Origin: an uncultured Clostridia bacterium
Lineage (GTDB): Bacteria > Bacillota > Clostridia > Christensenellales > CAG-138
Assembly (NCBI GenBank): GCA_947306125.1
Contig: CAMZFO010000004.1
Span: 1-44,704 of the forward strand
Length of the DNA: 44,704 nucleotides
Direction: 5' to 3'
Under the pieces are notes generated by a model, which worked only from the letters and a program-made list of their open reading frames with translations, did not search any database and was not told the DNA's origin. Every line of letters begins with the position of its first letter. The first letter of the stretch is position 1. This document shows, one piece after another, positions 2,202 through 32,100 of the stretch. Made by a program: the position numbers and the translations under genes.

Positions 2202-2888
2202 TCACATCCCCCTTATCTCCGCGTGCTTGACGAAGGGCTTTACCGCCGCCAGATACCTCTGCATCTCCTCCGCCGTCGGCGCGGAGAAGCATTTGAAGGG
2301 CACCGTGTCGCGGTCGGCAAAGGCCTGCAGGAAATAGTTTTCCGCGCCCTCTATCATGCGGCCTATGTTTATAAAGGAGGTCTCGTCGTGCAGGGGGGAG
2401 ACGACAGTCGTGCGGAACTCGTAGCCGACCCGCCCCTCGAGCAGCAGCGCGATGCTCTCCTCGATCGGCGCGGTATCCATCTCCTCCAGCCCGCAGGTCA
2501 GCGCGTAGCGGGGTATGTCGTTCTTCACGTCCATTGCGGCGTAGTCTATGAGCCCGCGGTCTATGAGCGCGCGAAGCCGCTCCGGATGAGTGCCGTTGGT
2601 ATCGAGCTTCACGGCAAAGCCCAGCTCCTTTATGCGCGATATGAGTTCGGGAAGCTCGCTTCGCAGCAGTGCCTCGCCCCCCGTGAAAGCCACGCCGTCA
2701 AGCAGGCCCCGGCGGGTATTGAGAAACTCCATGAGCCCCGCGTCGTCCGTCACGGCGGGGGCGGCGCCCCAAAGCTCGCTGTTATGGCAGAAGGGGCAGC
2801 GCAGGTCGCACCCGGCCAAAAACACCGTGCAGGCGGATCTGCCCGGAAAATCGAGCAGCGTGAGCTTTTGCAGGCCGTTGATATCCAT
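2202..2888 (-). CDS. nrdG: Anaerobic ribonucleotide reductase activating protein, radical SAM
   Basis: MDINGLQKLTLLDFPGRSACTVFLAGCDLRCPFCHN with CxxxCxxC motif. Confidence 0.9.
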   Translation of the reverse strand: MDINGLQKLTLLDFPGRSACTVFLAGCDLRCPFCHNSELWGAAPAVTDDAGLMEFLNTRRGLLDGVAFTGGEALLRSELPELISRIKELGFAVKLDTNGTHPERLRALIDRGLIDYAAMDVKNDIPRYALTCGLEEMDTAPIEESIALLLEGRVGYEFRTTVVSPLHDETSFINIGRMIEGAENYFLQAFADRDTVPFKCFSAPTAEEMQRYLAAVKPFVKHAEIRGM

Positions 2889-2924
2889 CGTTCTGTCCTT
2901 TCGTTGCGTCTTTCGTCATGCTTG

Positions 2925-2952
2925 ATTTTATCATCTGACCGCAAATTGTCAA
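2925..2952 (-). promoter_or_regulatory. Promoter of nrdG
   Basis: Minus strand TTGACA-N16-TAAAAT. Confidence 0.6.
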
Positions 2953-2979
2953 GCCCGACTTTGTTTCTCAATAAAAGCC

Positions 2980-3008
2980 TTGACGAATATATTTTTTTCG
3001 GGTATAAT
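2980..3008 (+). promoter_or_regulatory. Distal promoter upstream of the AOS/SDR operon
   Basis: TTGACG-N17-TATAAT. Confidence 0.7.
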
Positions 3009-3059
3009 GAATTGTTGATGCAGCCGCAGCGGGTGAATGATCTTTTCATATTTTTTTAT

Positions 3060-3088
3060 TTGACGGCCGCGCCCGCCGGTGCTATAAT
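3060..3088 (+). promoter_or_regulatory. Proximal promoter of the AOS/SDR operon
   Basis: TTGACG-N17-TATAAT, exactly 80 bp downstream of the distal promoter. Confidence 0.8.
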
Positions 3089-3097
3089 ACTCATGAT

Positions 3098-3114
3098 GGT
3101 TAACGGTGTTAACC
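3098..3114. promoter_or_regulatory. Operator-like perfect palindrome GGTTAAC-GGT-GTTAACC
   Basis: 7+3+7 bp perfect inverted repeat just downstream of the predicted start site. Confidence 0.6.
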
Positions 3115-3137
3115 CGTAAACAGCGGAAAGGAATCAT

Positions 3138-4319
3138 ATGGATCTTTTTGACAAGTGTAAGAACAGCCTCGTCGAAAACGCGAGGGCTGCGGGGATCTAC
3201 CCCTATTTCCACATGCTCGAGTCCAGGCAGGACGTCGAAGTCATAATGGAGGGCAAGCGCCGCATAATGCTGGGCTCGAACAACTATCTGGGCCTCACCT
3301 CCAATCAGCGCGTGATCGACGCAGGCGTTGCCGCGCTCAAAAAATACGGCAGCGGCTGCTCCGGCTCCCGCTTTTTGAACGGCACTCTGGAGCTGCACGT
3401 TCAGCTCGAGGAGGAGTTGGCGAGGTTCCTCAATAAGGAGGCGGTGATGACCTTCTCCACCGGCTTCCAGTCGAACCTCGGCATTATCAGCGCCATAGTC
3501 GGCAGGCATGATTACATGATCTGCGATAAGGAGAACCACGCCTCCATCTACGACGGCTGCAGGCTGAGCTTCGGCAAGATGGTCAGGTACCGCCATTCCG
3601 ATATGGAGGATCTCGAAGCGCAGCTTAAGAATATCCCCGAGTCCGCGGGCAAGCTCATAATCACCGACGGCGTGTTCTCGATGGGCGGCGATATCGCAAA
3701 GCTCCCGGAGATAGTCGAGCTGGCTCAGAAGTACGGCGCAAGGGTGATGGTCGACGACGCGCACGGCCTCGGCGTGCTGGGCGAAAACGGCCGCGGCACG
3801 GCGGATTATTTCGGCCTCACGGATAAGGTCGATCTCATTATGGGCACCTTCTCCAAGAGCCTCGCCTCCATTGGCGGCTACGTCGCGGGCGATTACCGCG
3901 TTATTGATTACGTACGCCACGCCTCGCGCCCCTTCATATTCTGCGCCTCCATACCGCCTGCCTCCTGCGCGACCGCGCTCGAGGCGCTCCACATACTCGA
4001 GGAGAGCCCGGAGCTGCCCAAGCGGCTCATGGCGCTCGCCGCGCATATGCGCAAGGGCCTGAAGGACAGGGGCATCGCCATCCGCGACAGCATAACGCCC
4101 ATAATCCCCATTTATACCTACGAAAACGAGCGCACCTTCATAAAGGCGAAGGAGCTTTACGAGGAGGGAGTTTACGTCAATCCCGTGCTGCCCCCCGCGA
4201 CCCCGGAGGGCGAGTGCCTGCTCCGCACGAGCTATATGGCGACCCATACCGAGGCGCTCCTGGACGAGGCGCTCGACATCATAGAGAGGGTAATAGGGCC
4301 CTCGGAGAAGCATGAGTAA
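3138..4319 (+). CDS. Alpha-oxoamine synthase family PLP enzyme, serine palmitoyltransferase-like
   Basis: GSNNYLGLTSNQRVI, GSGCSGSRFLNGTLELHVQLE, DDAHGLGVLGENGRG, PLP-lysine motif GTFSKSLASIGGY; resembles Bacteroides-type SPT as recalled. Confidence 0.85.
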   Translation: MDLFDKCKNSLVENARAAGIYPYFHMLESRQDVEVIMEGKRRIMLGSNNYLGLTSNQRVIDAGVAALKKYGSGCSGSRFLNGTLELHVQLEEELARFLNKEAVMTFSTGFQSNLGIISAIVGRHDYMICDKENHASIYDGCRLSFGKMVRYRHSDMEDLEAQLKNIPESAGKLIITDGVFSMGGDIAKLPEIVELAQKYGARVMVDDAHGLGVLGENGRGTADYFGLTDKVDLIMGTFSKSLASIGGYVAGDYRVIDYVRHASRPFIFCASIPPASCATALEALHILEESPELPKRLMALAAHMRKGLKDRGIAIRDSITPIIPIYTYENERTFIKAKELYEEGVYVNPVLPPATPEGECLLRTSYMATHTEALLDEALDIIERVIGPSEKHE

Positions 4320-5103
4320 GCGCATAACCGTCATAACCGGAGCCACGAGCGGCATCGGCCTTGCCATGGCGCGGGAGTTTTCTGCCCGCGGGGATAAGGT
4401 ATACGCGCTTGCGCGCCGCGAAGCGGAGCTGCCCGAGGGCGTCAGCTTCATCGCCGCCGACGTCACGGACGAGGCGCAGGTGAAGGCCGCCGCCGAAGCC
4501 GTAATGGAAAGGGAGGGCAGGATAGACCTGCTCGTGAACAACGCGGGCTTCGGCATTTCGGGCGCCGTCGAGTTTACCAAGGCGGAGGACGCCAAGCGCC
4601 AGTTCGACGTCAATTTCTTCGGCATGGTCAATATGACCCGCGCCGTGCTGCCCCATATGCGCGCGCAGGGCGGCGGCATGGTGTTGAACGTGAGCTCCGT
4701 CGCGGCAGTCACGCCCATACCCTATCAAACCTATTATTCCGCATCCAAGGCGGCTATTAACGCCTACACCATGGCGCTTGCCAACGAGGTGCGCGGGCAT
4801 AATATAAGGGTCGCGGCGCTCATGCCGGGCGACGTAAAGACGGGCTTCACCGCCGCGAGGGCGAAGTCGCTCGAGGGGGCGGAGGTATACCCCGCGCTCG
4901 AGAAGTCGGTAAAGACAATGGAGCATGACGAGCAGAACGGCATGCCCCCCGAGGCGCTGGCAAAGAGGGCGTATTTCATATCCGGAAGGAAGCATCCCAA
5001 GCCCCTCTATTCCTGCGGCTTCCAGTACTGCCTCTTCTGCGTGCTCGCAAAGGTGCTGCCGAATCGGCTTGTGAATTGGATACTCTCAAAGCTTTACGGC
5101 TAA
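4312..5103 (+). CDS. Short-chain dehydrogenase/reductase (possible 3-ketosphinganine reductase)
   Basis: TGATSGIG, NNAGFG, YSASKAA motifs; overlaps the upstream gene by 8 bp. Confidence 0.85.
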   Translation: MSKRITVITGATSGIGLAMAREFSARGDKVYALARREAELPEGVSFIAADVTDEAQVKAAAEAVMEREGRIDLLVNNAGFGISGAVEFTKAEDAKRQFDVNFFGMVNMTRAVLPHMRAQGGGMVLNVSSVAAVTPIPYQTYYSASKAAINAYTMALANEVRGHNIRVAALMPGDVKTGFTAARAKSLEGAEVYPALEKSVKTMEHDEQNGMPPEALAKRAYFISGRKHPKPLYSCGFQYCLFCVLAKVLPNRLVNWILSKLYG

Positions 5104-5137
5104 GGGGAAAGATCCGGCGAAATATATTTATAAAATG

Positions 5138-5168
5138 AGGGAACCTCTCGGCAGGTTCCTTCGTTTTA
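5138..5168 (+). terminator. Rho-independent terminator of the AOS/SDR operon
   Basis: GGAACCT-ctcggc-AGGTTCC followed by TTCGTTTT. Confidence 0.75.
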
Positions 5169-5403: not shown

Positions 5404-6279
5404 TTACCAATCAAACTGATACTGTGTCGGGAAAGCGAATACTTCGAAAGAAGCTACACTCTCTTCGGTAATACTGTCAGGCATTGAAAGCGAGCTAAGC
5501 TCAAAGCCGACCTTATCACCTGCTGCGATGTCATTCGTGACAATAGTCATGAGCTGACCGATTCCATGATGATCTGCATCATATAGATTTGCAATAACAT
5601 AAACCAGCTTCTGAACTTCATCGCTTGTGTTCTTTACTCTGCCCTTGAGCTTGATTCCATAGTATTTATCCGTGAAGAGCTCTTCATCGGAAGTCTCGAG
5701 GCGAATACACTCAACGGTCGCTTTCTTGGCTTGAACATGAGGAAGAACGGTTAAGGTCTCTACACCGGGATCCTCATCAAGCGTGGTATCATCTGCAAGC
5801 AGCGCGGTTTCGCCGGGGAGAAGAACCTCGGGATAAGGAGAGACCAACTCGATTGTATCTACAAGGTGCTCATCAGCATCCTCAAGGTCAATAGTGCTGG
5901 TGCTGAGATATAAAGGATCCGATCCGGTATTTTCGATTTGAACAACAACATGCACCCAATATGTGCCGATGCTGTTTTTGTAGACAAGGGCATTTGTGTA
6001 CGATACTTCATATGCAGTACCGACGGGCTCTGCAGCCTCAGTAGGTTCGTTCTCAGAGGGTTCTGCCGTCGGCTCTTCCTCTGCAGTACCGACGGGCTCC
6101 GCAGCCTCAGTAGGTTCGTTCTCAGAGGGTTCTGCCGTCGGCTCTTCCTCGGCGGGGGCGGAAGTGTTCTCGGCGGGTTTTTGTGTGGGATCGGTTACAG
6201 AAGACGGCGTCGACGATGAACAACCGGCAGCAAGAACGACTAATACGATGACCAGAATTAAAGACAATAACTTTTTCAT
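5404..6279 (-). CDS. Secreted lipoprotein, FxLYD-domain-like, with Pro/Glu/Thr-rich linker
   Basis: MKKLLSLILVIVLVVLAAGCSSS lipobox; KLKGRVKNTSDEVQKLVYVIANLYDADHHGIG resembles FxLYD. Confidence 0.8.
   Translation of the reverse strand: MKKLLSLILVIVLVVLAAGCSSSTPSSVTDPTQKPAENTSAPAEEEPTAEPSENEPTEAAEPVGTAEEEPTAEPSENEPTEAAEPVGTAYEVSYTNALVYKNSIGTYWVHVVVQIENTGSDPLYLSTSTIDLEDADEHLVDTIELVSPYPEVLLPGETALLADDTTLDEDPGVETLTVLPHVQAKKATVECIRLETSDEELFTDKYYGIKLKGRVKNTSDEVQKLVYVIANLYDADHHGIGQLMTIVTNDIAAGDKVGFELSSLSMPDSITEESVASFEVFAFPTQYQFDW
6014..6150. repeat. 69-bp tandem duplication in the lipoprotein linker (2 copies)
   Basis: gcagtaccgacgggctc[t/c]gcagcctcagtaggttcgttctcagagggttctgccgtcggctcttcctc twice; encodes EEEPTAEPSENEPTEAAEPVGTA x2. 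Confidence 0.95.
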
Positions 6280-6970: not shown

Positions 6971-9355
6971 TTAGCTGTTCGCGATCAACTCGTATATCGC
7001 GGAGATATCGCGGATATCGACCGTCCCGTCGCCGTTCGCGTCGGCGTTGAGCATGCCCTGCGCGGCGATCTCGGGGGACTCGCCGTTCAAATACATCGCC
7101 AGTATCGTGACGTCGGCCATTGTCACCGTCCCGTCGCAGTCCACGTCGCCGGGAAGGTTCGTCGGCGCGGGAGTCGGCGTGGGAGTCGGCGTGGGAGTCG
7201 GAGTGGGAGTCGGGGTCGGCGTGGGAGTCGGGGTCGGCGTAGGTGTAGGCGTGGGCGTAGGCGTGGGAGTCGGCGTGGGAGTCGGGGTCGGCGTCGGCGT
7301 GGGTGTAGGCGTGGGCTCCGGCTGCTCGGCGTTCGTGAACAGGCGGAATACCGCGGCCTGAGCGATATCGTTGGTCGCCGTGAAGGAGCCGTTCGCGAAG
7401 GCTATGTAATACGTGCCGGAAGAGGAGGTGGAATAGGAGAGTATCCCGTCCGCGTAATCCACCTCGCGGCCTCGGGTGTAGGTCATTATGCCGTTGCTGC
7501 TGGTGGGGTAGAGATAGCCGCCCGCGTTTTGGAAGCAGCCGTCGTCCGTCCTCGTCCATACGACCGCGGAGCTGCTTGAAGCTATGCGGCCGTCCTCAAC
7601 GGTCAGAGCCGTGGAGGACACGGTGCTGCTGCCGTAGGTCATGGCGTTCACCGCGCTGCCCTCGCCGACGGCAAGAATATAGTCGTTGCCCGCGGTGAGC
7701 GCGTCCGTCTCATAATAGTATTCGTCGGCGGGCGCAGGCGTGGGCGTGGGAGTCTGGGCCGGATCGCCCGAGGTGGGCGTGGGAGTCGGATCCGTATTGC
7801 CGGGATTGTATTCATAGATCGTGAGCGAGGCGGCGGAGGAGCTCGAGCGGACGGTGAAGACGTTCACCGGGTTGGAGGAGCTGCCGCTGCCGTGAGCGAG
7901 GTACTTGTCCGAGCTTGAGCCGGAGGAGGCGTTGGAGCTCTTGAGCTTGCCGCCCGAGAGCGTCCATCCGTCGGGGACTTCGCCCATGGTCAGCTTGCCG
8001 TCATAGCCGCCGCTGCTGTTGGAGGTGTATGAGCCCGCGAGCAGCCTTCCGCTCTCGTCTAAAAGATACCAGCCGCTGTCGGAGCTTACGGCCGTCCAGA
8101 GCATATCCGTCGTGATAGCGGAGGCGGAGAATATGACGCCGTCAAGGCCGGTGTAGACGTACTGCTGGGAGCCGCTGCCGGCGTTTGAGAAGGTGGCGTC
8201 CGTATCGCGGCAGGTCAGCGCATAGCCGTCGTCCGCCACTATGACGTACTTCCTGCCGTTCACGAATCCGGATACCTGCACCGCGCTGCCGGGCTCGGCG
8301 GTGGGCGCGGGAGTGGGCGTGGGAGTGGGCTCGGGGGTCGGGCCGGGTATGAAGGGGGACTCCGTCACGTCGTTGCCGTTGGCGTCGTAATAGTGGAAGT
8401 CCATCTCGTCCCCGTCAAAGGTGACTATGAGCCCCTTGCCCTTGACGTACGCGCTGCCCGTGCCGTATTCGCTGTCGCTCATGCAGCCCGCGGAGGCGTA
8501 ATAGAAGCCTATGGTCTTGGTATCGCCCGAATAGGTGTAAGGTATGGAGGCGCCGGGGAGTATCACCTCGTCGTAATAGGGATCGGAAAGGGTGTGATTA
8601 TGCCCCCAGAGCAGTATTATCGTCTTGCCCGCGGCGGCGCCGGCGTTCAGTGCGTCAATGACCAGATCGGCGTTCACGGTCTGGCGCTTGGTGCTCCACC
8701 AATAACTGCCGTTCGAATAGCCGTGGAGCGGGAAATGGGTCAGCACGATAATGGGCTTTTCGGAGTCAACGGAGGACAAATAGGCGGAAAGCGAGTCGAC
8801 CTGCTCCTGCGTGTAATTATCCACGCTGTTATTGAAATTGGTTGTGCCGAGCGCGTATATGCGGCAGGCGGGGATATCGAGACATTCCTCGCCCACGACG
8901 TAATTTAATGCGACGGGGTTCTCGGTGGAGTCGAATTTGCCGTTGTAGAATTCGTGATTGCCCGTGGTGTAGAAGGCGGGTATGCCGTGGGAGGTGACGA
9001 CGTCTATGGCGTTCTGGGAATACTGCCAGAAGAGGTCCTCGCCCACGCCCGCGTCGCCCATGTCGCCGCAGAAGCCCATGTAATCTATTTTGCCGTAGCG
9101 GGCGAGCATATTGTCGAGCCATCCGAACATCCTGTTGGCGGATTGGTTGGCTTCCATATTATGCACGTCCGAGCTGAATGCGAGCACCGTCGCGTCCGGC
9201 GAGAGCTCGGCTGCAGCCGCCCCTGCCCGAGGTGCGGATCCGGCGGCGGGAACTGCGTCCGTCGAGACCGCGCGCGGCTGTGAGAAGGGTATGATTACGG
9301 CGAATGACGCCAGCATTACGAGCGCGATCGCGGCGGATAAAAGCTTTTTTTCCAT
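6971..9355 (-). CDS. Secreted calcineurin-like metallophosphoesterase with (PT)n linker and C-terminal type I dockerin
   Basis: Signal peptide; [35 protein letters not shown]; long TPTPTP linker; [14 protein letters not shown]...[20 protein letters not shown]. Confidence 0.88.
7160..7316. repeat. Hexanucleotide-based low-complexity repeat encoding the Thr-Pro linker
   Basis: Iterated gtcggcgtgggagtcggcgtgg... encoding (TP)n. Confidence 0.9.
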
Positions 9356-9441
9356 TTTTTGCCTCCGGGGGTATGGAATTTACGGATAGTTTATGGCATT
9401 TTTGCGTCATTGTCAATAAAAAACGCCGAGTTTATCAATAG

Positions 9442-9483: not shown

Positions 9484-12400
9484 TCAGCTGTTTGCGATCA
9501 TGGCGTAGATCGCCGCGATATCGCGGATGTCGACCGTGCCGTCGCCGTTCGCGTCGGCGGCCTGCAGGCCGGAGGCGGAGATCTCGGGGTTTTCGCCGTT
9601 CAGGAACATCGAGAGCAGCGAAACGTCGCCGAGATCGACCACGCCGTTGCAGTCCACGTCCCCGGGCAGGGGCTCACCGACCGGGGGCAGCACGACCTCG
9701 ACGGTCTGCGTTTCAAAACCCTCCGAACCGAACTCGGCCGTGTACAGCGCGAGGCCGGGCTCTGTTGCGGTGGGGGGCACTATCACCTCGCAGGAGGCCG
9801 CCGCGGTCTCCGCCTCGGTATGGTTTTCGTCCCGCAGGCAGGTGTGCGCGGCGGTGCAGGAGCTGTGATCGGCCGACCACTCGTAGGTTGCCTCCCCCCA
9901 GATATGGCCGAGCGCTTCCTCCGTGACGGTATTCGTTCCGACGTATTCAACGCCGTTGAAGGTAACGGTTGCGGTATAGACCGTAACGCCCTCCGTTTCA
10001 CAGCCGGGCTCGGAAACGGCCTCGGAGGTGATCGCCTCCCCGCTCGCGGTGACGCGCGGCTTTACCGCCGGGTCGCTCAATGCTGTGAACACGGCCGCCG
10101 CCTCGGTGCAGTCCGCGTTCCACTCCCATTCGGGCTCGCCGTATTCGTACTGATCGAGCCGCGTGTTGGTGATCCGCGCGGTCAGCGTGGTTTCATCCAA
10201 ATAGCAGGAGGATACGACGTAGGTGCCCGTCCATTCGCCGCTGCTGTCGGGCAGGTGGACGTAGGTGAATATCGGCTTAAGGCCGGGGTAGGAAGCATTA
10301 TCCGCGTCGTCGGGGTCAAGGAGCAGCCTGCCGAGGCTGCCGGAGCCGTCAAGCTCCGTCATATCGGGATCGTCCGGGTCAATAACGAAGCCCGAGCCGT
10401 AAAAATCGTGATAGGCGGATATCGCCTCGCGTATGCGGTAGGAATCGAGGGGCGTCTCATCGGTCACGGGAACCGCTTCGAACACCTCGTCATAGGCGTG
10501 GTTTGCGGGCACGTAGACCGTCTGCAGGGTGGTCCACACCTCGTTCCCCTGCACGTCGTACGTCCTGTGCTGCAGCAGCGCGTACACGGAATAGATCAGC
10601 CCGCGGTCGGGCTCGAAATCCACGTGCACCATGAAGCGGGGGCCGAAGCGCTTCAGGGTAACGGCCGTGTGGCGGGTGGCCTCATCGTAGGAATAGGTTA
10701 TCACGAAATCGTAGTAGCGGGAGGCGCCGTCCTTCGTTACGGCAAATGTGCCCCTGTTCAGGCAGCCTTCGATCCCATCCGATCCGTCGTATACGACGGT
10801 GTAGCCGGAGTTGAGCTCCTGGAAGGAAACGCGGGCGTAATAATCCGCCTCATCCATCTGCGGCTCGAAAGCCTCGAACCAGCCGTTTTCGGCTTTCATC
10901 CTGACCATGGCGGCAGTACGGCTGCTTCCGCGGACGAGCAGCAGGCCCGTGACCATATCGGGCGTTTCATCCGCGGGAAGGGGAGCGCCGTACTCATCCT
11001 GCCATTCGCAGCTCATGGTGTAAACCGTGCCGCAGGAGTTGGTTATGACGGTCAGCCCGCCTTCCTGCTCGCTGTAGTCGACGGTGTAATCGATATCCAT
11101 CCCGCCGCCGGAGGAGAAGTCCACGTGAAGGGAGGCCGTCTGCGCGACCCCATAGGGATTATCGGAGTCGTTCGCCGCAAGCACGGCGTTCCCGTACTGA
11201 TCCAGCTCGCGCACGCGGTAGTAGAAATTGCCCTCCACGATGGGCGCAAAATCCGCCTGCCAGCCGTTCTCTTCGGATAGAACCACGGTATCGACGGTGG
11301 TCCAATCGGAGAAGTAACTGCGCTGCAGTACGGCCTGTATGCTTTCGGGCATGTAATTGCCGTAGTGATCAACGTTCCATTCCTTGCTTACGGAGAAGAG
11401 CGTCGAATGGCTGTTCGTCAGCTTTATGCGCGCTTCGCCCCTGTGGAGTATGTCGATCGCCTGCGAATAAGAGTAGGAGCTGAGGCCGGAATCCTGCTCG
11501 GAGCCGAGCCACAGGCGCCCGGAGGAGCGGAGGCCGAAGGGCAGTTCAACGGAACCGGAGGAGTCGGAAAGCACCCAGCTTTCCGGCGCATAGCCCTCCA
11601 CAGCCCCTTCCGAAAGGGTCAGGCTGCCCGTATCCGTAACGAATATCCCGGCAGCCCAGCCGTTCGCGGAGGAAAGGGTAACGGAGCCTGTCTCGACCCT
11701 TCCCGGGGCGTATTCGTTCACGTAATCCACCGTCACCGAGGCGGGGTGGGAGCTGTCGGGCCACTGCTTGGTGAGCGTCATGGGGTATTTTTTCAGCCAC
11801 AGAGCGTACAGCGTGAGCGAAAGCATGCTTACGGGGGTGCTGAAATCATACTCGGTCTGGAAGGAGGTATCCGTGTACCAGCCGCCGAAATACCAGCCCT
11901 CTGCCGAAGGCTCCTCCGGCTCGGTCACAGTCCCGCCCGATTCGACTGTCTGCTGTGCGGGCGCCATGCCGTGGCCCTGCATATCGAACGTTACGATGCA
12001 GGGGCCGGGAACTATTGCCGCAAAGGACTTGCTTCTGCATATGGAGGAAGCTTCGTTGCCGTAGCACACGCCGTCCTCCACCACGTTGCCGCTTGAATCA
12101 AGATGGCCGTAGGTGGTCTTGGCAATGTCGTAAACCCAAAGCGAGCCGCTGCCCCCGCCGCCATCGCCCTTGCCGATGGAGTGCGCGGAGTTCCTGCCCG
12201 CTGTGGCGATCACCGTGCCGCCGTTGATGACCACGGTTCCGCCGTAGCCGTCGTCGCCGCCGCCGATGCCCGCGCCGCCGTAGGTGCCGGAGAATATAAG
12301 GCCTGCGAGGAGATAATTGACTACCGAAGCGTAATTGAGAAATTCATTGAAGGAAGGAGCAAAATCGGCAAGGCCGGCCTTCCAGTAATTGTAATCGAGG

Positions 12401-14076
12401 TAGCCGCCCAATGCTGTGACGCTGCCGCCGTTTATCGTAACGGTGCCGCCGTCGCCGTCGTTGCCGCCGCCGATGCCCGCGCCCTTTGAGGTGGAAAGCG
12501 CAAGCACTATGCCGCCGTCTATGCGGACGTTGCCGCCGTCGCCGCCTCCGCCGCCTTCCCGGGCGCCGCCTCCGCCGATGCCCGCGCCGATGTTGCTCAC
12601 GGCAACCACGCAGCCGTCGGTGATGATGACGTCCTTGCCGTCATAGCCGCCGCCGTCGCCCGAATCGCATCCGCCGCCGCCAATGCCAGCGCCGCTCGCG
12701 GCATAGGCGTACACCTCGCCGCCGTTGATGGTTATGGCGCCGTTCTGGTGCGCGTGCTCGCCGGCGCCTATGCCGGCGCCTCCGCACAGTATGTCGGCCT
12801 CGCCGTAGTGGGCTTCCACCACGCCGCCGTTTATCGTTATGGGCCCGTTGGAGGAATCGTTGCCGGCTCCAATGCCCGCGCCGCCGTAGGAGCCGCCCTC
12901 GGCATAGATCTCGCCGCCGTTGATTATTATGGGGCCGTTGGGCGCGCCGTTGCCCCCGCCTATGCCGGCGGATTCCCTGCCGCCGTAAGCCTTTATAACG
13001 CCGCCGTTGATGGTGATGGGGCCGCTCGTGCCGTCGTCGCCGCCGCCTATCGCCGCGCCGCACTCAAGGCCGTACCATTCGCCGCCTATCTTGCAGGCGT
13101 CCGCGCGGGCCTCTATATAGGTGTGATTGCCGTTGATCGTTATGCTTCCGCTGTTCGTTCCGGAGCAGCTGCCTATCGCGGCGTCGTCGTAACCGCCGTA
13201 GATAAGGTAGCGCCCGCCGTTTATGGTCAGGCTCGCCCCCTCCGGCACGTCGATGCCCGGGCCGCAGATCTCGATAGTGCTGCCGTAGCGCTGCATTACG
13301 GTCACTCTGCCGTTGCCCTCCGTCTGGGGCCAGATGGTCAGGGAGCTGCCGGGAACTATGGTTATGCCGGTGCCGAAATAGACGGAGGAATCGTCGCAGA
13401 GCACAAGATGGCAGTCGCCGTAGGCCACAAGCGCCTCAAGGTTCCAATTCCCGCGCAGGGCGTACCAGCCGCCGGGGGTCTCCAGATCGAAGCCGCCGGT
13501 GAACAGCGTGTATTCCTCCTGCACGCAGGGGTTGCCGTCCCCATCGCAGTAATGCAGAGGGCCGTTCAGATCCTCAACGGAATAAAGGCAGAACGGTATC
13601 TCTTGGCCGGGGTTGTTGGCAAAGGAAACGCCCACCGCGGGCTCCCTGCTGCACCACTCGGGGAAGGGGGCCTCATACGTTAGCTGCTCGTACATGTAGC
13701 CGTCCACAAGCAGCATGTACATGCTCTCTATGCGTATGGTCGCGGGCTCGCCCTCGAAATTGGCGTAGAGCTTCTTCGCTTCCCACTGATCCACTTCGCC
13801 TATCGTCGCGGCGTCGTAATAGTAGATCGTGTTGCCCTCCGCGTCGAGCACGGAGAGCACCAGCGAATAGAAATCCGCGTAGTCCTTTCCCATGGGCTCT
13901 AAGCAGAATACGTAATCCGAAAGGAGCAGATCCTCCTCGTTGATCACGCGCCGCGCGGGCGCCTCATCATTGGGGGAGGGCGCCGGGGCCTCCTCAGCCC
14001 GCGCCGCAGGCCCCGCGGGCAGTACGGCAAGCGCCATTATCAGCGCAAGCAGCAGGGATAAAGCTTTTTTCAACAT
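9484..14076 (-). CDS. Large secreted protein: Gly-rich beta-helix-like repeats, InlB B-type repeat, Cna-B-like region, C-terminal dockerin
   Basis: Signal MLKKALSLLLALIMALAVLPAGPAARA; repeated GAGIGGG..G.ITINGG; VTFDMQGHGMAPAQQTVESGGTVTEP...GWYFGGWYTD; GDVDCNGVVDLGDVSLLSM...[20 protein letters not shown]. Confidence 0.85.
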   Translation of the reverse strand: MLKKALSLLLALIMALAVLPAGPAARAEEAPAPSPNDEAPARRVINEEDLLLSDYVFCLEPMGKDYADFYSLVLSVLDAEGNTIYYYDAATIGEVDQWEAKKLYANFEGEPATIRIESMYMLLVDGYMYEQLTYEAPFPEWCSREPAVGVSFANNPGQEIPFCLYSVEDLNGPLHYCDGDGNPCVQEEYTLFTGGFDLETPGGWYALRGNWNLEALVAYGDCHLVLCDDSSVYFGTGITIVPGSSLTIWPQTEGNGRVTVMQRYGSTIEICGPGIDVPEGASLTINGGRYLIYGGYDDAAIGSCSGTNSGSITINGNHTYIEARADACKIGGEWYGLECGAAIGGGDDGTSGPITINGGVIKAYGGRESAGIGGGNGAPNGPIIINGGEIYAEGGSYGGAGIGAGNDSSNGPITINGGVVEAHYGEADILCGGAGIGAGEHAHQNGAITINGGEVYAYAASGAGIGGGGCDSGDGGGYDGKDVIITDGCVVAVSNIGAGIGGGGAREGGGGGDGGNVRIDGGIVLALSTSKGAGIGGGNDGDGGTVTINGGSVTALGGYLDYNYWKAGLADFAPSFNEFLNYASVVNYLLAGLIFSGTYGGAGIGGGDDGYGGTVVINGGTVIATAGRNSAHSIGKGDGGGGSGSLWVYDIAKTTYGHLDSSGNVVEDGVCYGNEASSICRSKSFAAIVPGPCIVTFDMQGHGMAPAQQTVESGGTVTEPEEPSAEGWYFGGWYTDTSFQTEYDFSTPVSMLSLTLYALWLKKYPMTLTKQWPDSSHPASVTVDYVNEYAPGRVETGSVTLSSANGWAAGIFVTDTGSLTLSEGAVEGYAPESWVLSDSSGSVELPFGLRSSGRLWLGSEQDSGLSSYSYSQAIDILHRGEARIKLTNSHSTLFSVSKEWNVDHYGNYMPESIQAVLQRSYFSDWTTVDTVVLSEENGWQADFAPIVEGNFYYRVRELDQYGNAVLAANDSDNPYGVAQTASLHVDFSSGGGMDIDYTVDYSEQEGGLTVITNSCGTVYTMSCEWQDEYGAPLPADETPDMVTGLLLVRGSSRTAAMVRMKAENGWFEAFEPQMDEADYYARVSFQELNSGYTVVYDGSDGIEGCLNRGTFAVTKDGASRYYDFVITYSYDEATRHTAVTLKRFGPRFMVHVDFEPDRGLIYSVYALLQHRTYDVQGNEVWTTLQTVYVPANHAYDEVFEAVPVTDETPLDSYRIREAISAYHDFYGSGFVIDPDDPDMTELDGSGSLGRLLLDPDDADNASYPGLKPIFTYVHLPDSSGEWTGTYVVSSCYLDETTLTARITNTRLDQYEYGEPEWEWNADCTEAAAVFTALSDPAVKPRVTASGEAITSEAVSEPGCETEGVTVYTATVTFNGVEYVGTNTVTEEALGHIWGEATYEWSADHSSCTAAHTCLRDENHTEAETAAASCEVIVPPTATEPGLALYTAEFGSEGFETQTVEVVLPPVGEPLPGDVDCNGVVDLGDVSLLSMFLNGENPEISASGLQAADANGDGTVDIRDIAAIYAMIANS

Positions 14077-22999: not shown

Positions 23000-25900
23000 A
23001 TGAAAAAGCTTGTCGCTTTTTTCCTTGCAGTCCTGTTCGTTTTCGGCTCGTTTGGTAACACCTTTGCCGGAACGGTAATGGAGCACGAAGAATATCCTGA
23101 CCGCGTTTACGTTTCCGAGCCTGTTTGCACACCCAAACCGCAGGCAGAAGAAAACGTCGCCGTACCGGAGCGGCAGGAAACTCCTTCCGTCCCCACCCGC
23201 GAGGTGTATTCCGGCACCTGCGGGGCTGATCTCACGTGGACTCTTGACACCGAAACCGGCGTGCTCGAGATCACCGGCACAGGGGATATGACTAACTGGA
23301 CATATTCTTCTAGAGCACCATGGTCATCGTATCTTTTAGATATCTGCTCTGTTGAAGTATCAAACGGCGTAACAAGCATCGGTAACTATGCATTTTACTA
23401 TGGTAGTTCACTCAAATCTGTTATACTTGGAGATAGTATAAAGGCAATCGGGACTTCTGCTTTTGAATACTGCAGCTCGCTCACGTCACTTTTTATACCA
23501 GACAGTGTAACTCAAATTGGAAATTATGCGTTGCGCTACTGTGAATCGTTAACTATTGTGACCATAGGGAGTGGTCTGCTGAGTCTGGGAAAGTACGTGT
23601 TTCATGAGTGTAGTTCGCTAAAAACAATCTTGGTGGATCAAGCAAATAGGTATTTTTGCTCTGTGGACGGGATTTTGTATAATAAAGAAATCGACTCCCT
23701 GCTGTATTGTCCGGAAGGGAGGACGGAATCTTGCATCATACCTGATAATGTAGAGTATATTGCCGGATATGCATTCCAAAACTGTAGGTATATTCCTTCT
23801 ATAGCTATGGGAAACAACGTAAGAAGTATAGGAAGCAATGCGTTTTATAATTGCAGCTCGCTAGTTTCTGTTGCAATATCAGACTCAATAGTTTATATAG
23901 AAAACTACACGTTTTATGGATGCAGATCACTTGAAAATATAGCTTTGCCAGAAAACGTAGCATATATTGGAAACTCTGCGTTCTGTGACTGCTGCTCGCT
24001 CACGTCTTTTACAATACCATGCAAGGTTAATTATATTGGTGACTATGCTTTTGGAGGTTGCAGTTTGCTAGAATCCATAATTGTTGATTATGGGAATGAA
24101 GACTATTGCTCTGAAGATGGAATACTTTATAATAAACAGGTCACAGATCTGATTTGTTGCCCTGCTGGAAAAACCGGTACGTGCATTATACCTAATAGTG
24201 TAACAAGTATACGCGATCTTGCATTCAGTGGTTGCAAGATGCTTACAGATATAACACTAGGAGATGGTCTGTTGAATATTGGCAATTATGCATTTAGAGA
24301 CTGCAGCTCCATTGTGTCTATAATAATTCCTTGCAATGTAGCAGGAATAGGTAATTATGCTTTCTATAGCTGCAGCTCTTTAAGTGAAGCTATATTCCTT
24401 GGTATACCTCCTTACAGCTTCGGAGATAGCGTTTTTGAAAGCTGCGCTTCTGACTTTTGTATATACTATACTTCTGGAAACGCATCCGAATGGGCTCCAA
24501 ATGGAGAAACAATGTGGAATTGGTATCATATTGCCCTATTCGGGTATGTACAACCAACGCCTATCCCGGGTTACTATACAGGATCATGCGGAGATAACCT
24601 CATATGGACACTAAATCAATGGGATGGGACTATGGAAATAGATGGCACAGGAGAGATGACAAATTGGATCAATCCGGAATATGTACCATGGTATCCTTAT
24701 ATTGAATACATAAAAAGGGTTGATATAAAGGCTGAAATAACGTATATTAGTAATTTTGCCTTTGATCAATGCAATAAACTAATTGAAGTTAATATACCCA
24801 CTGGAGTAACTACAATAGGTAATTGTGCCTTCAGTGGGTGCAGTTCATTGAAAACGGTAAGCATACCGGAAGGAGTAAAGGAAATATGGGGTGGAGCATT
24901 TAGCGGTTGCAGCAACCTTGTTTCAGTTAATATCCCATATGGGGTAACAAGCATAGGAGCAGGCGCTTTCAGTGGTTGTACTTCGTTGATTTCTATTGTT
25001 ATCCCGGATAGTGTAACATATACAGGAAACTTCATTTCTGGTTACAATACATTCGAGGGTTGCAGCGCTCTTGAATCCGTAATAATTGGAAATGGTGTAA
25101 AGACTATTGGTGAAAAAACTTTCTATAATTGTACTTCGCTCGCCTCGGTTTCAATTGGAGATCATGTAACGAGTATAGGTGGTCGTGCTTTCGAGGGGTG
25201 TAATTCATTAGCTGGTATTACTGTACCTGAGAGTGTGACAAGCATTGGCGATCGAGCATTTAAGGATTGCAGTTCTTTAACATCCATGGTCATCCCTGAT
25301 AGCGTAACAGACATAGATTGGTATTATTTATTTAATGGCTGCCTATCGCTTCAAACGGTAAGTATTGGAAATGGTATAACAACCATAGGAGAAGATGCAT
25401 TCTGTGGCTGTGTAATGCTAACTTCGGTGATAATCCCTGACAGTATTACTAGTATTGGAGAGGACGCTTTCTCATATTGCAATTCTCTTTTATCTATAAA
25501 TATACCGGACAGTGTTACAAATATTGACTGGCCGGTGTTCAAGGGATGCAGTTCGCTGGAGGAAGTTAGAATAGGAAATGGTGTGCCAAATATAGGCAAT
25601 GAGGCTTTCAAGGATTGCGGTTTGCTCACCACAGTAATAATAGGTAACAGTGTTACAAGCATAGGATTCTCTGCTTTCGAAGGGTGTAGTTCGCTTCTGT
25701 CAATCTCTATACCTGATAGTGTTACGAGCATGGGATCTTCTGTGTTTGAACGTTGCACAAAGCTGCGATCTGTGTCTATAGGTATTGGCATAACAAGCAT
25801 AGAAAAAGATACTTTTAGGGAGTGTAGTTCTCTTCTTTCTGTTATTATTCCTGACAATATAACAGACATAGGCGATTCTGCTTTTTCTGGATGTGACTTG

Positions 25901-28900
25901 CTCAATTCTGTAACAATCGGAAAAGGGGTAGTTAATATTGGTGACGGCGCGTTTTGCAATTGCCGTTCGCTAGTTTCTTTAACGATTGGTAGCAATGTCG
26001 AGTGTATTAACAGCAGTGCATTTGTCGGATGTGAAATGCTTACAACAATAAGTATACCTTCCAGTGTAAATGTGATTCAATATAATGCGTTTAAAAACTG
26101 CATATCGCTAAATGAGGCAATATTTTATGGAGCACCGCCATCCTATGCTTCTTACTCAATCTTCGATAATTGTGCAGAAGATTTCTGCATATACTATACT
26201 TCCGCCCATGCTTCTGAATGGGCTCCCAATGGTGAAACAACATGGAATGGCTATCCAATAGCTCTACTCGCAGGAACAGACGAGCCCGACGCCACCATCG
26301 CTCCCGTTGTGACCCCGGAACCCACCGAGCTCACCAAGGCTGAGGATATGTTCTACGAGAACTGTTATATCGCCGATATCTGGCTGAACAACAATTATGA
26401 TGGATACGGCTCTCATAACGGATCAACAGCTGAGTATGGGTATTTCAACAGTATTCTCGATCAGGAATCATTATCGGAGATACTTGTCGACAAGCTTGAT
26501 AAAAACAATTCTTTTAAGAATAAGGTTGATGCATGGAACGGAATTCTGACTTTTTTTGATCCGGACAAGGGTTTATATGAGTGTGCCGATCAGTATCAAG
26601 TTTACGAAGCGGTCATTTTCGATTTCATAACACGCATTATTGAAGATGAGGAGAATACGGCAAATAATCTTATACAAGATGTTTTGGACTCGGTAGATGT
26701 ATTGAGTTCAGCAGAGGAGGACGTAACAAAAGTACATAAACTTATTAACAATATTGTCGAAGCATCCGGCTTAACTTCAGAAAGTGCATTGCTGGAGTTT
26801 TTGAAAACGGATTCAGCTAATCCTCGGTTCATAAATGAATTCGAAGCTTTGTGTAAGGATTTCGATTTCCTGCAAAAATGGAAAGATTCATCCATCATAG
26901 AAAGTATCGGAGTGATTGCCTCTGTTTCAAATGATATTTCCGATTTTATGGGCCGCATGTCTTCCTACTTCTATTTGGAGGATGTAAGCGATGAGCTTCT
27001 CTCATTGCTGAAAACCATTCGCGCCGAATCCGGTGATGACTGTCTGAGGACGGCGTTGCAGAGGATCATAACATGCATTGAGAATACTGAGCTGATCGAA
27101 TTTGTACTTCTGGATGATTTTACGGCAAACGTAATTAATAAAACCGTCATTTCAGAATTCACCAAGATGATTTGGACCGATCTGATCCCGACGGGAATCG
27201 GCGTTATCAAGCTTGGCTATGAGGGCGGCAGGTTGATGTCAAACCTTATGTACAATACAGAAGGCGTTATTGATAAGTATTATCTGATAAAGGCTTCGGC
27301 TGCTTTTACTTCTGCAAACAGAGCAGCTATAGACGCGCTTAAAGACAGATATCTGGAAAGTGGAACAGAAGATGACGCCGGCGCATATATTTATGCAATG
27401 AGAATGTATAAATATGCCCTTGAAAACGATTTGGACGCCGGAGCTCAATTTGCCGAAGCAGCGGAAAAGGATGGGCTAATCAACTTTATCGTAGATAAAA
27501 TGTGCAAGCTTTTGAAAATGCTGACGGGGGATGATTCCAAGAGCAATTACGAGTATCTTATTGAAAACAAGGATTCGGTGCTCAAAAGTTACGAATTCAT
27601 GTACGAACGTGCGGAGACCTGTTGGAAATACGACTATCTTAAGGAAGACCATCCAGAAGTATACCCGATTTATGCATCGGATATTTTTACGGATGAGCAC
27701 TATATCCCACAGATAACAGACATAACAATAAATACTAACGGAGAAATAGTAGTTACGTGCAATTACCCGCCAACTTATTATGGCTCTGACAACGAACTGG
27801 AGTTTATCGGAGCCAACATGATAGACGGGATAGAGGTTCTGGAGATCGTTAACGGAGAACACACGGTGCTGGATATGCAATTGGATGAAACCGCTGTGGC
27901 TTTCAGCAGTGCGAACAATCTAAATGCTTTCCCGAAGGATTACTACGCACGCACGTATACAGAATCCTCCGAGGGCAGGATATACTCGGAATACTGTCAC
28001 AAGTTATTTGATCCTTTAAAGCCCGCCAAACTTGAGGTCACGAAGATTTTGGAGAATACTGTGATCGGAATCCATGACAAGACCTTGGGTAAATACACAA
28101 ATGTGCGATACCACATCTACAGAATGAACGCTTCCGGAGATTACGTGCAAATAGATACGATCGACAGGAACAGCTTCTCAATCTTCGGCACCATTACGCC
28201 ATATTATGACGGTACAGCTTCAGTTGGGAGCAACCGCTACAAAGTTGTTTCGGAAATGTACTTTAATAACGGATCGTCACTGTTTGCCGAATCCGCAGAA
28301 ACGATTTATTCATCACGGGAAACGGAAGCGATCATTAACGATCTTATCATCAGGATAGTGGGAGGCGTTCTTGCCGGAAGCAAATCCGCTTATTCTCCTG
28401 CTGACGACGACCCCGGCATCACCGAATACGGCTACGAGATCACTTGGGAGCCCTACGAGAATGCGGAAGGCTACCAAATCTACCGCAAAGAGGCCTTTGG
28501 CGATAACTATAATCTTATCGCGGAGGTGGATGGTTCCGAAACAACATATCTGGATTCCACCGCAGACGTCCTCCTGGGTTATGGATTCATGGTAATTCCC
28601 TATACCATTGAAGACGGCGTAAAAACCGTTGACACCGGAAACTATGCCGCCGGCATTCTGACACACACCGTTACGTTTGTTGATTGGGACGGAACTGTTC
28701 TCTCCGAGCAGACCATAGAGCATAGCCACGGTGCGGAAGCCCCAGAGGTACCCGGGCGCGAGGGATATGCGTTTATCGGTTGGGATCACAACGTAGGCAA
28801 CATTCAGGATGATGTGACTATAACTGCTCTATATGGCCCTCGGTATGGCGATATCGACTGCAGCGGGCTGATCACCATGGCCGACGTGACGATACTTTCG

Positions 28901-29026
28901 ATGTACCTGAACGGCGAAAACCCGACCGTTTCCGAGCCCGGCATGCTGAACGCCGACGCGAACGCGGACGGCACGGTCGATATCCGCGATATCGCGGCGA
29001 TCTACGCCATCATAGCGGCAAGCTGA
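23000..29026 (+). CDS. Giant secreted BspA-type leucine-rich repeat protein with InlB-B-like repeat and C-terminal dockerin
   Basis: Signal peptide; many VTSIGxxAFxGCSSLxSVxIPDSV repeats; [67 protein letters not shown]...[20 protein letters not shown]. Confidence 0.9.
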   Translation: MKKLVAFFLAVLFVFGSFGNTFAGTVMEHEEYPDRVYVSEPVCTPKPQAEENVAVPERQETPSVPTREVYSGTCGADLTWTLDTETGVLEITGTGDMTNWTYSSRAPWSSYLLDICSVEVSNGVTSIGNYAFYYGSSLKSVILGDSIKAIGTSAFEYCSSLTSLFIPDSVTQIGNYALRYCESLTIVTIGSGLLSLGKYVFHECSSLKTILVDQANRYFCSVDGILYNKEIDSLLYCPEGRTESCIIPDNVEYIAGYAFQNCRYIPSIAMGNNVRSIGSNAFYNCSSLVSVAISDSIVYIENYTFYGCRSLENIALPENVAYIGNSAFCDCCSLTSFTIPCKVNYIGDYAFGGCSLLESIIVDYGNEDYCSEDGILYNKQVTDLICCPAGKTGTCIIPNSVTSIRDLAFSGCKMLTDITLGDGLLNIGNYAFRDCSSIVSIIIPCNVAGIGNYAFYSCSSLSEAIFLGIPPYSFGDSVFESCASDFCIYYTSGNASEWAPNGETMWNWYHIALFGYVQPTPIPGYYTGSCGDNLIWTLNQWDGTMEIDGTGEMTNWINPEYVPWYPYIEYIKRVDIKAEITYISNFAFDQCNKLIEVNIPTGVTTIGNCAFSGCSSLKTVSIPEGVKEIWGGAFSGCSNLVSVNIPYGVTSIGAGAFSGCTSLISIVIPDSVTYTGNFISGYNTFEGCSALESVIIGNGVKTIGEKTFYNCTSLASVSIGDHVTSIGGRAFEGCNSLAGITVPESVTSIGDRAFKDCSSLTSMVIPDSVTDIDWYYLFNGCLSLQTVSIGNGITTIGEDAFCGCVMLTSVIIPDSITSIGEDAFSYCNSLLSINIPDSVTNIDWPVFKGCSSLEEVRIGNGVPNIGNEAFKDCGLLTTVIIGNSVTSIGFSAFEGCSSLLSISIPDSVTSMGSSVFERCTKLRSVSIGIGITSIEKDTFRECSSLLSVIIPDNITDIGDSAFSGCDLLNSVTIGKGVVNIGDGAFCNCRSLVSLTIGSNVECINSSAFVGCEMLTTISIPSSVNVIQYNAFKNCISLNEAIFYGAPPSYASYSIFDNCAEDFCIYYTSAHASEWAPNGETTWNGYPIALLAGTDEPDATIAPVVTPEPTELTKAEDMFYENCYIADIWLNNNYDGYGSHNGSTAEYGYFNSILDQESLSEILVDKLDKNNSFKNKVDAWNGILTFFDPDKGLYECADQYQVYEAVIFDFITRIIEDEENTANNLIQDVLDSVDVLSSAEEDVTKVHKLINNIVEASGLTSESALLEFLKTDSANPRFINEFEALCKDFDFLQKWKDSSIIESIGVIASVSNDISDFMGRMSSYFYLEDVSDELLSLLKTIRAESGDDCLRTALQRIITCIENTELIEFVLLDDFTANVINKTVISEFTKMIWTDLIPTGIGVIKLGYEGGRLMSNLMYNTEGVIDKYYLIKASAAFTSANRAAIDALKDRYLESGTEDDAGAYIYAMRMYKYALENDLDAGAQFAEAAEKDGLINFIVDKMCKLLKMLTGDDSKSNYEYLIENKDSVLKSYEFMYERAETCWKYDYLKEDHPEVYPIYASDIFTDEHYIPQITDITINTNGEIVVTCNYPPTYYGSDNELEFIGANMIDGIEVLEIVNGEHTVLDMQLDETAVAFSSANNLNAFPKDYYARTYTESSEGRIYSEYCHKLFDPLKPAKLEVTKILENTVIGIHDKTLGKYTNVRYHIYRMNASGDYVQIDTIDRNSFSIFGTITPYYDGTASVGSNRYKVVSEMYFNNGSSLFAESAETIYSSRETEAIINDLIIRIVGGVLAGSKSAYSPADDDPGITEYGYEITWEPYENAEGYQIYRKEAFGDNYNLIAEVDGSETTYLDSTADVLLGYGFMVIPYTIEDGVKTVDTGNYAAGILTHTVTFVDWDGTVLSEQTIEHSHGAEAPEVPGREGYAFIGWDHNVGNIQDDVTITALYGPRYGDIDCSGLITMADVTILSMYLNGENPTVSEPGMLNADANADGTVDIRDIAAIYAIIAAS

Positions 29027-29109: not shown

Positions 29110-32100
29110 ATGAAACGATTCAGGACTGCGGTCGGCATACTGCTGGCATTACTGATGCTCTTCGGCTGCATGCCCCTTGCGCTTGCCAAGGGGGCCGTCG
29201 GGGAAAAGGGCGAAAGGAGCCCCGAGGCGGGGACGAGATCGGTCGTGGAAAAGACCCTTGCGGAGGCCGCGGCGTTCCCCGATGAGGACGAGCCCTTTCC
29301 GCTCACCTGCAACAGCGCCTATACCTATGATTGGCGCGTAATGAACGCCACCGAGTACGGCGACTGCGTAAGGGGCGGCGGAAGCGCGTTCGGAAGCGCC
29401 GAATCAAAGACGATCACCATGTACGCGGACGTGGAGATGGATACGAGCCTCTATCCCTACCTCAGCTTTATGATGAGGCAGTATAAGAAGTGCACGCTTA
29501 CGATCACCTGCCGCGATCTTGACACGGGCGCCGACTTCACGCTCCTGACCGCGGAGCATACCGATGATATGAGCAGCGACTGGCAGGGGTATTACGTTGA
29601 GCTCAACGATCCCAACGGCGGCGTGGCCAGGCTGCACTTTGAGTTCAGTCTTACCCTTTACGTGCCCGGCTCCAACTGCTACTGCGATATTGCGGATCTG
29701 CGCTGCGGCCTTGCCAACAGCATAGACGACGTGCTGCAGGCGCCCGATTCCGAACTCGATTTCATCGTATCCGGCAATTCCGACGGGCGTTCCTACATCC
29801 ATAAATCCACGGATCCCCTCGGCAATTATCTGCTGATGGAATGCGGCGACGACCCGCAGGATCCCGATCCGGAGGAGGCGGTCATGGCGGATATATTCGC
29901 CGCGCAGGGCGACGTGCTCTCGTTCAAATACGCCTGCTCGCTGGATTACATGGACGGCGCGAACTTCTATTTCGGCACGCTCGACGACAGCGGCTTCCAC
30001 AAGATAACCGAGAACGAGGACGAGAACGGCGACGGCTATATCAACAACGACGGCGAAGTCGAGACCTGGGCTTCCTATTCCTATACGATACCCTCGACGG
30101 GCCTTTATACCTTCGTCTGGAAGCTCTGCGCATATTCGGACGCTTCCTGCCTCGCGCTCGACGATATAAGCATAACGCCCGCGATGAGCTTCTCCCGCGC
30201 GGTGAGCTACCCCAATTACAGCGCGGGCGAGCCGACCTTCTCCGGCAACGGGGATTGGGCGTTTACCTCGAAGAGCGGCCTGCTCTGTGTAAAGAGCGGC
30301 GCCATCACTCACAGCCAGAGCGCGTGCTTCACCACGCCCGGGCACATAATGGACAATGGCGCGGAGATAGCCTTCGATTACTTCACCAGCTCCGAAGCAA
30401 ATTGGGACAAGCTCAACGTCTATCTTGTGGATATGCTGAATAACGGCGCCGAAACGCAGATACTTACCGTAAGCGGCATAGATACCGCATGGCATAGTCT
30501 GATATACGAGGTCCCCGCAAGGAGCGAGTATTCGCTGCGCTTCGAGTATAAGAAGGACAGCTCCGTTTCAAAGGGCGACGACTGCGCATACGTTATGGAT
30601 CTGAAATTCGAGGATATGACCCTTGCCGCTTTCATACCGCAGGAGCTCAGGAACAGTATGTCGCTGCAGTCGGTTTACAGCAGCGGCGCGCTCTGCTTCG
30701 GGTTCAGCCCCGCGGTCTATGACGGCGAGATAGTGCTCGTTCCCGATAACCGCGGCTTCCACAGTACCTCCGCTGAGATCTGTCTCGTTTCCAACGTCGG
30801 CGCGGGTGAAAAGATAGCCTTCGATTACAAACTCAGCACCGAGGAGGAGTACGATACGTTCACGGTGATCGAGCAAAACAGTATCACGAACGCGAATGAA
30901 TACGTATTCGATAACAACGAGGATTGGATCTCAATGAAGCTCAGGGCGGTCGGCAGCGGCTACTCGCAGCTCAAGCTGAGCTACAATAAGGACGTTTCGA
31001 TGAGCGAAAACGACGACAGCGTCTACCTCAAAAACTTCCGCATAGAGCCCCTGCCGGAGCTCGACGACGCGGTGAACCCCGACGACGGCAGTTATTTCGA
31101 TGAATACGAGCATGCGGATTTCACGCCCGATTACTTTGACGTGGCGGAGCTGGACGGCCGTCTTGCCGCCTTCGTCTCCGGCAATGACATTGGCACCTTC
31201 GGCACGAAGAACGCGAGGACGATGGTTTACGGCGAATACGTCTTCTTCGATTACAAGATCGTGGGCGGCGGCGAGATCCGCGTTTCCGTCGATAACACCG
31301 GTACGGGCTGGGTCGCGGGCGATACCGGCGGCGAGTGGATCCCCGCGCAATTAAGGATCGATTACACGGGCGAGCATCTCTATTTCACCGGCGATCCGCG
31401 GGGCGGGACGGTGTATATCGACAACATCAGGGTCGGCTACAGCGAGATACCGCTTGACGAGGCGGTGAATAAGGCGGATACCCAGATCTGGTTCGAGCCG
31501 GACTCCGATGATTTCATAGGCGTGGACGATCCCTACTCCTCGGCTAACGTCAAGAAATACGCATTGGCGGCAAACACCACCCACGCGGAGATGAGCTGGA
31601 CTTTCAATGCGATCTCCGGCGATAATTTCTGGCTGGTGATGATGTTCCTCGATCCGGACGACGAGCCCTGCGGCGCATCTGTCACCTTCTCCATCAACGG
31701 CGAAGAATACTGCACTTATGAGGACTATGATATCTACACCTTTACGCAGTCGGTGCAGAGCTGGATCAAGGTAACCGGCTTCTCGTTCCTGTACGGCGGA
31801 CCGATCACGTTTACGGTCGAATACGATTCGCCCACGGCGGCGCCGGGTCAGGGCTTATGCATCGGCCACGTTTGCGCCGTTACCCCGGGTGCAACGCTCG
31901 ACGAGGCGCTTAACGTAACGGGAGGCGGGCTGCACTTCACCGTTCCGGAGAACAGCGACGGCATATTCTATCCCGTGAACGACGGCGAACGCATATATGC
32001 CTACCCGAATATTGAGTATGAGGAAGGCTCCGGGTTTGAGACCAACTATTCGTTCGAGGCAAACGAGGATCTTACCGATTTCATAATACTCGATAACGAC

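Follow-up and report, generated by a model that had tools for sequence, protein, structure and literature searches.

A probable Bacteroidota-type sphingoid-base operon in an uncultured Clostridia bacterium, most likely leading to dihydroceramide

Gut sphingolipids are currently treated as a trademark of Bacteroidota that acts on the ceramide levels and the immunity of the host, and a review of the gut describes their detection as largely limited to Bacteroidota and some Alphaproteobacteria (PMC10191378). The window analyzed here, a stretch of 44,704 nucleotides from an uncultured rumen/gut Clostridia bacterium, carries an alpha-oxoamine synthase gene that runs into a gene for a short-chain dehydrogenase/reductase (SDR). 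The initial annotation took this pair for a possible sphingoid-base module in a Firmicute-like genome. Could a member of the Clostridia make sphingoid bases with these two enzymes, and how far would the pathway run? As we read the sequences, the pair is best explained as a sphingoid-base module of Bacteroidota type in a member of the Bacillota, with dihydroceramide as its most likely end point. We put the probability that the product of the operon is a sphingoid long-chain base, which in most related Clostridia would then become dihydroceramide, at a little over three in four. The features of the locus are as follows.

2202-2888, minus strand: divergent nrdG2-type gene, upstream (anaerobic ribonucleotide-reductase activase NrdG2, NCBIfam above cut-off)
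2980-3008, plus strand: distal promoter-like site, TTGACG-17-TATAAT (consensus scan, 11/12 matches; a sequence match alone)
3060-3088, plus strand: proximal promoter-like site, TTGACG-17-TATAAT, with TG before the -10 (consensus scan, 11/12)
3127-3132, plus strand: ribosome-binding site AAAGGA, ATG 5 nt further on (read from the sequence)
3138-4319, plus strand: SPT-like alpha-oxoamine synthase gene, ATG start, 393 aa
4304-4307, plus strand: ribosome-binding site GGAG of the SDR gene, within the 3' end of the SPT-like gene (from the sequence)
4312-5103, plus strand: KdsR-like SDR gene, ATG start, 263 aa
5129-5170, plus strand: intrinsic terminator-like hairpin, 18-bp stem, 3' of the operon (RNA fold)
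5404-6279, minus strand: convergent putative lipoprotein gene, downstream (no Pfam match)

The SPT-like and SDR reading frames overlap by 8 nt. Both frames, this overlap and the three motifs that had been pointed out in the first protein (at residues 236, 134 and 71) were confirmed. The operon had also been credited with its own promoters and terminator, and this holds up: two sigma-70-like sites with 11/12 matches precede it, and the hairpin that follows it is strong (-23.4 kcal/mol, z = -8.3; 0 shuffles as good). The consensus scan counted 9 sigma-70-like sites in this region, where shuffled sequences gave 1.5 +/- 1.3. Coordinate 2889, where the annotated region began, is merely where the divergent nrdG2-type gene ends.

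The same window encodes a cellulosome-like set of very large secreted proteins with C-terminal type I dockerin domains (6971-9355 and 9484-14076 on the minus strand, 23000-29026 and 29110-33378 on the plus strand). One of them has a long Pro-Thr repeat and one has BspA-type leucine-rich repeats.

The first protein is a strong member of its superfamily (best NCBIfam E value 1.6e-164). Its best NCBIfam model is SerpalmtaseCFB, the Bacteroidota SPT, at 547 bits. This model leads the next best by 127 bits, and the other SPT, KBL and BioF models lie approximately 125-160 bits lower (KBL 401, BioF 386). The curated SPT cut-off of 640 bits is missed by the first enzyme and reached by 0/245 Clostridia genomes; the protein is therefore filed as a member of an SPT-like sister clade and not as an equivalog. 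A maximum-likelihood tree was calculated from 60 proteins (clostridial enzymes, Bacteroidota and Sphingomonas SPT, KBL, BioF and HemA). Thirty clostridial sequences, including the window enzyme, form a single clade (support 100/99), which is sister to four Bacteroidota SPTs, the solved Sphingobacterium enzyme among them (99/95). KBL/BioF/HemA are split with support of 96/86 from the SPT side, onto which the Sphingomonas SPT falls. The enzyme thus lies outside the KBL and BioF clades, and the tree and the model scores bear out the earlier impression that it is closer to a Bacteroides-type SPT than to KBL or BioF. The call of the genome as Firmicute-like was also right, the relatives being Clostridia and Bacilli MAGs.

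The nearest solved structures are those of Sphingobacterium multivorum SPT (3a2b/8guh), with approximately 52% identity and no gaps over 378 residues. An AlphaFold (AF2) model of the first enzyme (pLDDT 89.5) has SPT as its best match, with a TM of 0.93-0.94 to 8guh/3a2b. This match discriminates little, since all alpha-oxoamine synthase relatives share the fold (TM ~0.9). A separate, true KBL is encoded on another contig of the same genome (654 bits against a cut-off of 460); threonine breakdown therefore does not depend on the window gene. KBL, BioF and HemA identities were rejected by the tree, identity and residues, as was the identity of a cysteate transferase.

The residues of Sphingobacterium SPT that contact PLP-serine, together with an "SPT-characteristic" GTFSKS motif, have been defined from its structures (PMC10196870). 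The PLP lysine of the window enzyme is K240, in the motif GTFSKSLASIGGY, and the PLP-stacking histidine is H134. GTFSKS and, in the numbering of the solved enzyme, Y27, F28, N52, G80, S81, N85, H138, S185, D210, A212, H213, T241, S243, K244 and R367 are kept in the window enzyme and in 29/29 relatives compared. KBL differs at 7 of those 15 positions (Y27, F28, G80, S81, N85, A212 and S243). Every SPT residue checked that is catalytic or differs in KBL is kept; with the roles assigned in PMC10196870, the PLP lysine, the stacking histidine and the residues of the serine and water network are all retained. Position 271 is changed from Met to Ile. The Bacteroidota SPTs of the tree have Ile there too, and Met271 of Sphingobacterium SPT makes its contact via the backbone (PMC10196870). 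The sequence evidence supports the first enzyme as a Bacteroidota-type SPT-like protein, most closely sister to the enzyme with which Bacteroides begins to make sphingolipids.

The second protein is a strong SDR superfamily member (Pfam E value 6e-53) with intact motifs: TGATSGIG at 9, NNAG at 76 and a Ser129-Tyr142-Lys146 triad that is invariant across 29 aligned SDRs. Both Gly-X-X-X-Gly-X-Gly and Ser/Tyr-X-X-X-Lys are present. Its best NCBIfam model, first of 231, is the 3-ketodihydrosphingosine reductase NF049977, at 240 bits against a curated cut-off of 400 bits. This model is a shaky yardstick, as at the threshold used it matched a Lactococcus control and missed a Bacteroides control. The nearest SDR of Prevotella is a PRK06182 protein, 36-38% identical to the window SDR. 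For these reasons, the substrate of the SDR is argued mainly from linkage.

An SDR gene adjoins the first gene in approximately 59/80 relatives' loci, mostly downstream with an overlap of a few bases and divergently in three; 21/80 close relatives have no SDR homologue near the SPT-like gene. For the class-wide count, 245 Clostridia genomes were sampled evenly. Of these, 30 (~12%) carry the SPT-like gene, a gap in the scores separating the clade from what lies beneath it, and 215 do not. A KdsR-like SDR occurs in 26/30 of the former and 9/215 of the latter (Fisher 2e-23), counts that are not independent of phylogeny. Counted by family, it occurs in 10/12 with the SPT-like gene and 4 of at least 59 without (hand count on the genomes listed). 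The two genes are immediate neighbors in 20 of the 26 genomes that have both, in co-directional and in divergent order. The link between them has been re-formed repeatedly in different arrangements, which argues for a joint function. The SDR proposed as the partner of the first enzyme is thus intact, co-occurs with the SPT-like gene and is physically linked to it across Clostridia. We argue from this genetic linkage that the second enzyme would act as a KdsR-like SDR.

No longer conserved cluster beyond the SDR was found among the relatives' neighbor genes, only local synteny (a MarR-type regulator, TetR/ABC in Bacilli, cyclophilin). The MarR-type regulator gene lies directly 5' of the pair in loci L071, L075, L076, L077, L036, L024 and L015. 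In Bacilli MAGs (L053, L056, L062, L070), genes for a TetR regulator and an ABC transporter, its ATP-binding domain fused to the permease, come before the pair and are possibly an export or regulation unit.

Several other loci were observed. A second, distinct Clostridia clade (456-467 bits, family f44) lies on the SPT side of the tree, with L103 (G098:C39) and L106 (G212:C120); both genomes also carry a KdsR-like SDR and a ceramide synthase homologue. On G132:C44, a lower-scoring alpha-oxoamine synthase at 8368-9417 (387 bits, SPT model) adjoins a KdsR-like SDR at 7512-8327. A plasmid of Priestia megaterium, one of the Bacilli (NZ_CP137804, 3628-8229; L120), has an SPT-like gene of 52% identity without an SDR; its neighbors are an SMR transporter and divergently oriented genes for an acyltransferase and a methyltransferase. 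This is possibly a locus of another amino-lipid pathway. The alpha-oxoamine synthase reading frame of L110 (G185:C8) is ~700 aa long with the domain starting at about residue 260, possibly a fusion protein or an open-frame artefact.

The initial annotation saw no ceramide synthase in the window. This is correct, and homologues do occur in the genomes of relatives. A GNAT-type protein of 373-385 aa is encoded close to the SPT genes of Rubrobacter, Aureispira and Klebsiella, and in Rubrobacter and Klebsiella an epimerase-type reductase is found there as well. The Caulobacter ceramide cluster is a similar gene set (PMC11324152). The three GNAT proteins are homologous over their whole length, and a ceramide synthase profile (A1) was built from them, with the function assigned by gene neighborhood. 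As positive controls, the Prevotella and Sphingomonas copies are detected. PF04339 (FemAB-like), tried as a stand-in, gave no matches and was dropped since the proteins beside the reference SPTs are GNAT-type.

Profile A1 matches in 19/22 near-complete Clostridia genomes chosen for the SPT-like gene. Across the sample of 245, matches are found in 24/30 genomes with the SPT-like gene and 27/215 without (p 6e-14), counts that again depend on phylogeny; at 160 bits or more, the numbers are 22/30 and 20/215. By family, they are 8/12 and 7 of at least 59 (p 2e-4; hand count, listed genomes, at least 71 families). The profile search found no ceramide synthase in the window's own genome, a 168-contig, 77.5%-complete MAG. 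The closest relative, whose first enzyme is 87% identical, carries a homologue at G245:C8:631214-632323, and we infer that the window organism would have one as well.

In seven relatives' genomes, including that of the closest relative, the ceramide synthase homologue lies directly 3' of the FakA and FakB (DegV) genes (L172, G245:C8, 5866-10996; L185, G259:C9, 4683-9790; also L164, L165, L167, L168 and L171). PlsX, as a second genomic copy, is adjacent in two genomes and ACP in one. The window genome has one PlsX, whose best match (82%) is not the copy adjacent to cerS in the relative but the other one. The position of cerS beside FakA-FakB, PlsX and ACP suggests acyl-ACP or acyl-phosphate, not acyl-CoA, as the donor. 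The neighborhood also suggests the fatty-acid-kinase route as the acyl supplier for N-acylation.

The pathway that we propose would begin with the condensation of an amino acid (most likely L-serine) and a long-chain acyl thioester to 3-ketosphinganine, catalyzed by the first protein as a soluble, PLP-dependent enzyme. The second protein, as an NAD(P)H-dependent SDR, would reduce the ketone to sphinganine (dihydrosphingosine) or a branched or odd-chain equivalent. In most related Clostridia, a GNAT-type ceramide synthase encoded elsewhere would then convert sphinganine into dihydroceramide, drawing on acyl-ACP or acyl-phosphate if the gene context seen in some rumen relatives is a guide. As with Bacteroides BT_0972 (PMC9278070), the pairing of SPT with an SDR suggests that reduction would precede acylation; Caulobacter may acylate before reduction (PMC11324152). 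We also put forward, tentatively and at somewhat less than even odds, a wider proposal. Dihydroceramide-type sphingolipids would be made by a large clostridial lineage of the gut and rumen (~12% of the sampled genomes) through an SPT-reductase operon and a cerS tied to fatty-acid kinase, PlsX and ACP. Scavenged fatty acids would enter as acyl-phosphate or acyl-ACP, not acyl-CoA, an organization unlike known routes.

The choice of amino acid is the least certain step, because Ala79 of the solved SPT is Ser (Ser75) in the first enzyme. Ala79 sits at the substrate side chain (PMC10196870), and the position is Ser (Thr in 2) in 29/29 relatives compared. A further pocket change, Phe368 to Thr364, lies beside the conserved arginine; 28 of the relatives have Thr immediately after Arg367. 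Such an SPT-fold enzyme could use mainly alanine or glycine and yield 1-deoxy(methyl)sphinganine-type amino alcohols, and 1-deoxysphingolipids have been reported from anaerobic bacteria (PMC11334938). We consider this unlikely: the L-serine-binding residues of Sphingobacterium SPT (N52, G80, S81, H138, T241 and S243) are kept, and position 79 itself varies (A, N) among the Bacteroidota and Sphingomonas SPTs.

The fold is common to all these enzymes, and an alpha-oxoamine synthase for a short or specialized acyl chain, in the service of biotin synthesis, threonine breakdown or a secondary metabolite, would fit it too; the SDR would then act on the aminoketone. The tree, the residues, the separate KBL and the co-occurrence with a ceramide synthase homologue speak against such a role, no biotin or PKS genes adjoin the operon, and we hold it to be quite improbable. 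We would hardly expect a sulfonolipid (capnine) pathway, in which cysteate replaces serine and a 3-ketocapnine reductase follows. The fold is shared by the cysteate acyl-ACP transferase of Alistipes, and kcr-like SDRs are reported from 12-14% of Firmicutes genomes (PMC11211663), but the first enzyme is 33% identical to the cysteate enzyme against 51-52% to SPT, and the tree groups it with SPT.

In the open-access literature, we found no paper in which a sphingolipid pathway is shown or proposed in Clostridia. A Gram-positive (actinobacterial) ceramide producer has reportedly been described. Sphingolipid capacity beyond Bacteroidota is already accepted, with SPT-like genes in 38 phyla in the Black Sea; the main text of that study names none of Firmicutes, Bacillota and Clostridia (PMC11334938), and the earlier work it cites had 9 phyla. 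The kinds of gene are already known from many phyla, and their organization in Clostridia is possibly new. The ability to make sphingolipids may, judging from these genes, be widespread in gut Clostridia. If this is true, the sources of microbial sphingolipids in gut and rumen need recounting, and sphingolipid function could be studied in anaerobic Gram-positive bacteria, which lack an outer membrane.

The window enzyme resembles the Bacteroidota SPTs (Sphingobacterium multivorum, Bacteroides, Parabacteroides, Prevotella) in identity, sister-clade position, PLP and serine contacts and fold. It differs from them in its distinct Bacillota clade, the Ser at 79 and the Thr that follows the conserved Arg. 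The window gene forms an operon with an SDR gene, whereas none adjoins the SPT genes examined from Bacteroides and Parabacteroides. The window SDR is like the 3-ketosphinganine reductase (BT_0972 of Bacteroides thetaiotaomicron, PMC9278070; NF049977) in its NAD(P) glycine motif, its Ser-Tyr-Lys triad and its best model, KdsR; the likeness comes from model and motifs, and its score is below the NF049977 cut-off. As in the Caulobacter-type ceramide pathway (aasR, cerR, acpR, spt, cerS; PMC11324152), the Clostridia relatives have a GNAT-type ceramide synthase homologue, in one case beside an ACP gene. However, no clustered cerR/aasR was seen beside clostridial SPT, the SDR pairs with SPT instead, and in some relatives FakA-FakB genes precede cerS. 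The sphingolipid producers proposed outside Bacteroidota (PMC11334938) have the same kinds of gene as those found here in Clostridia.
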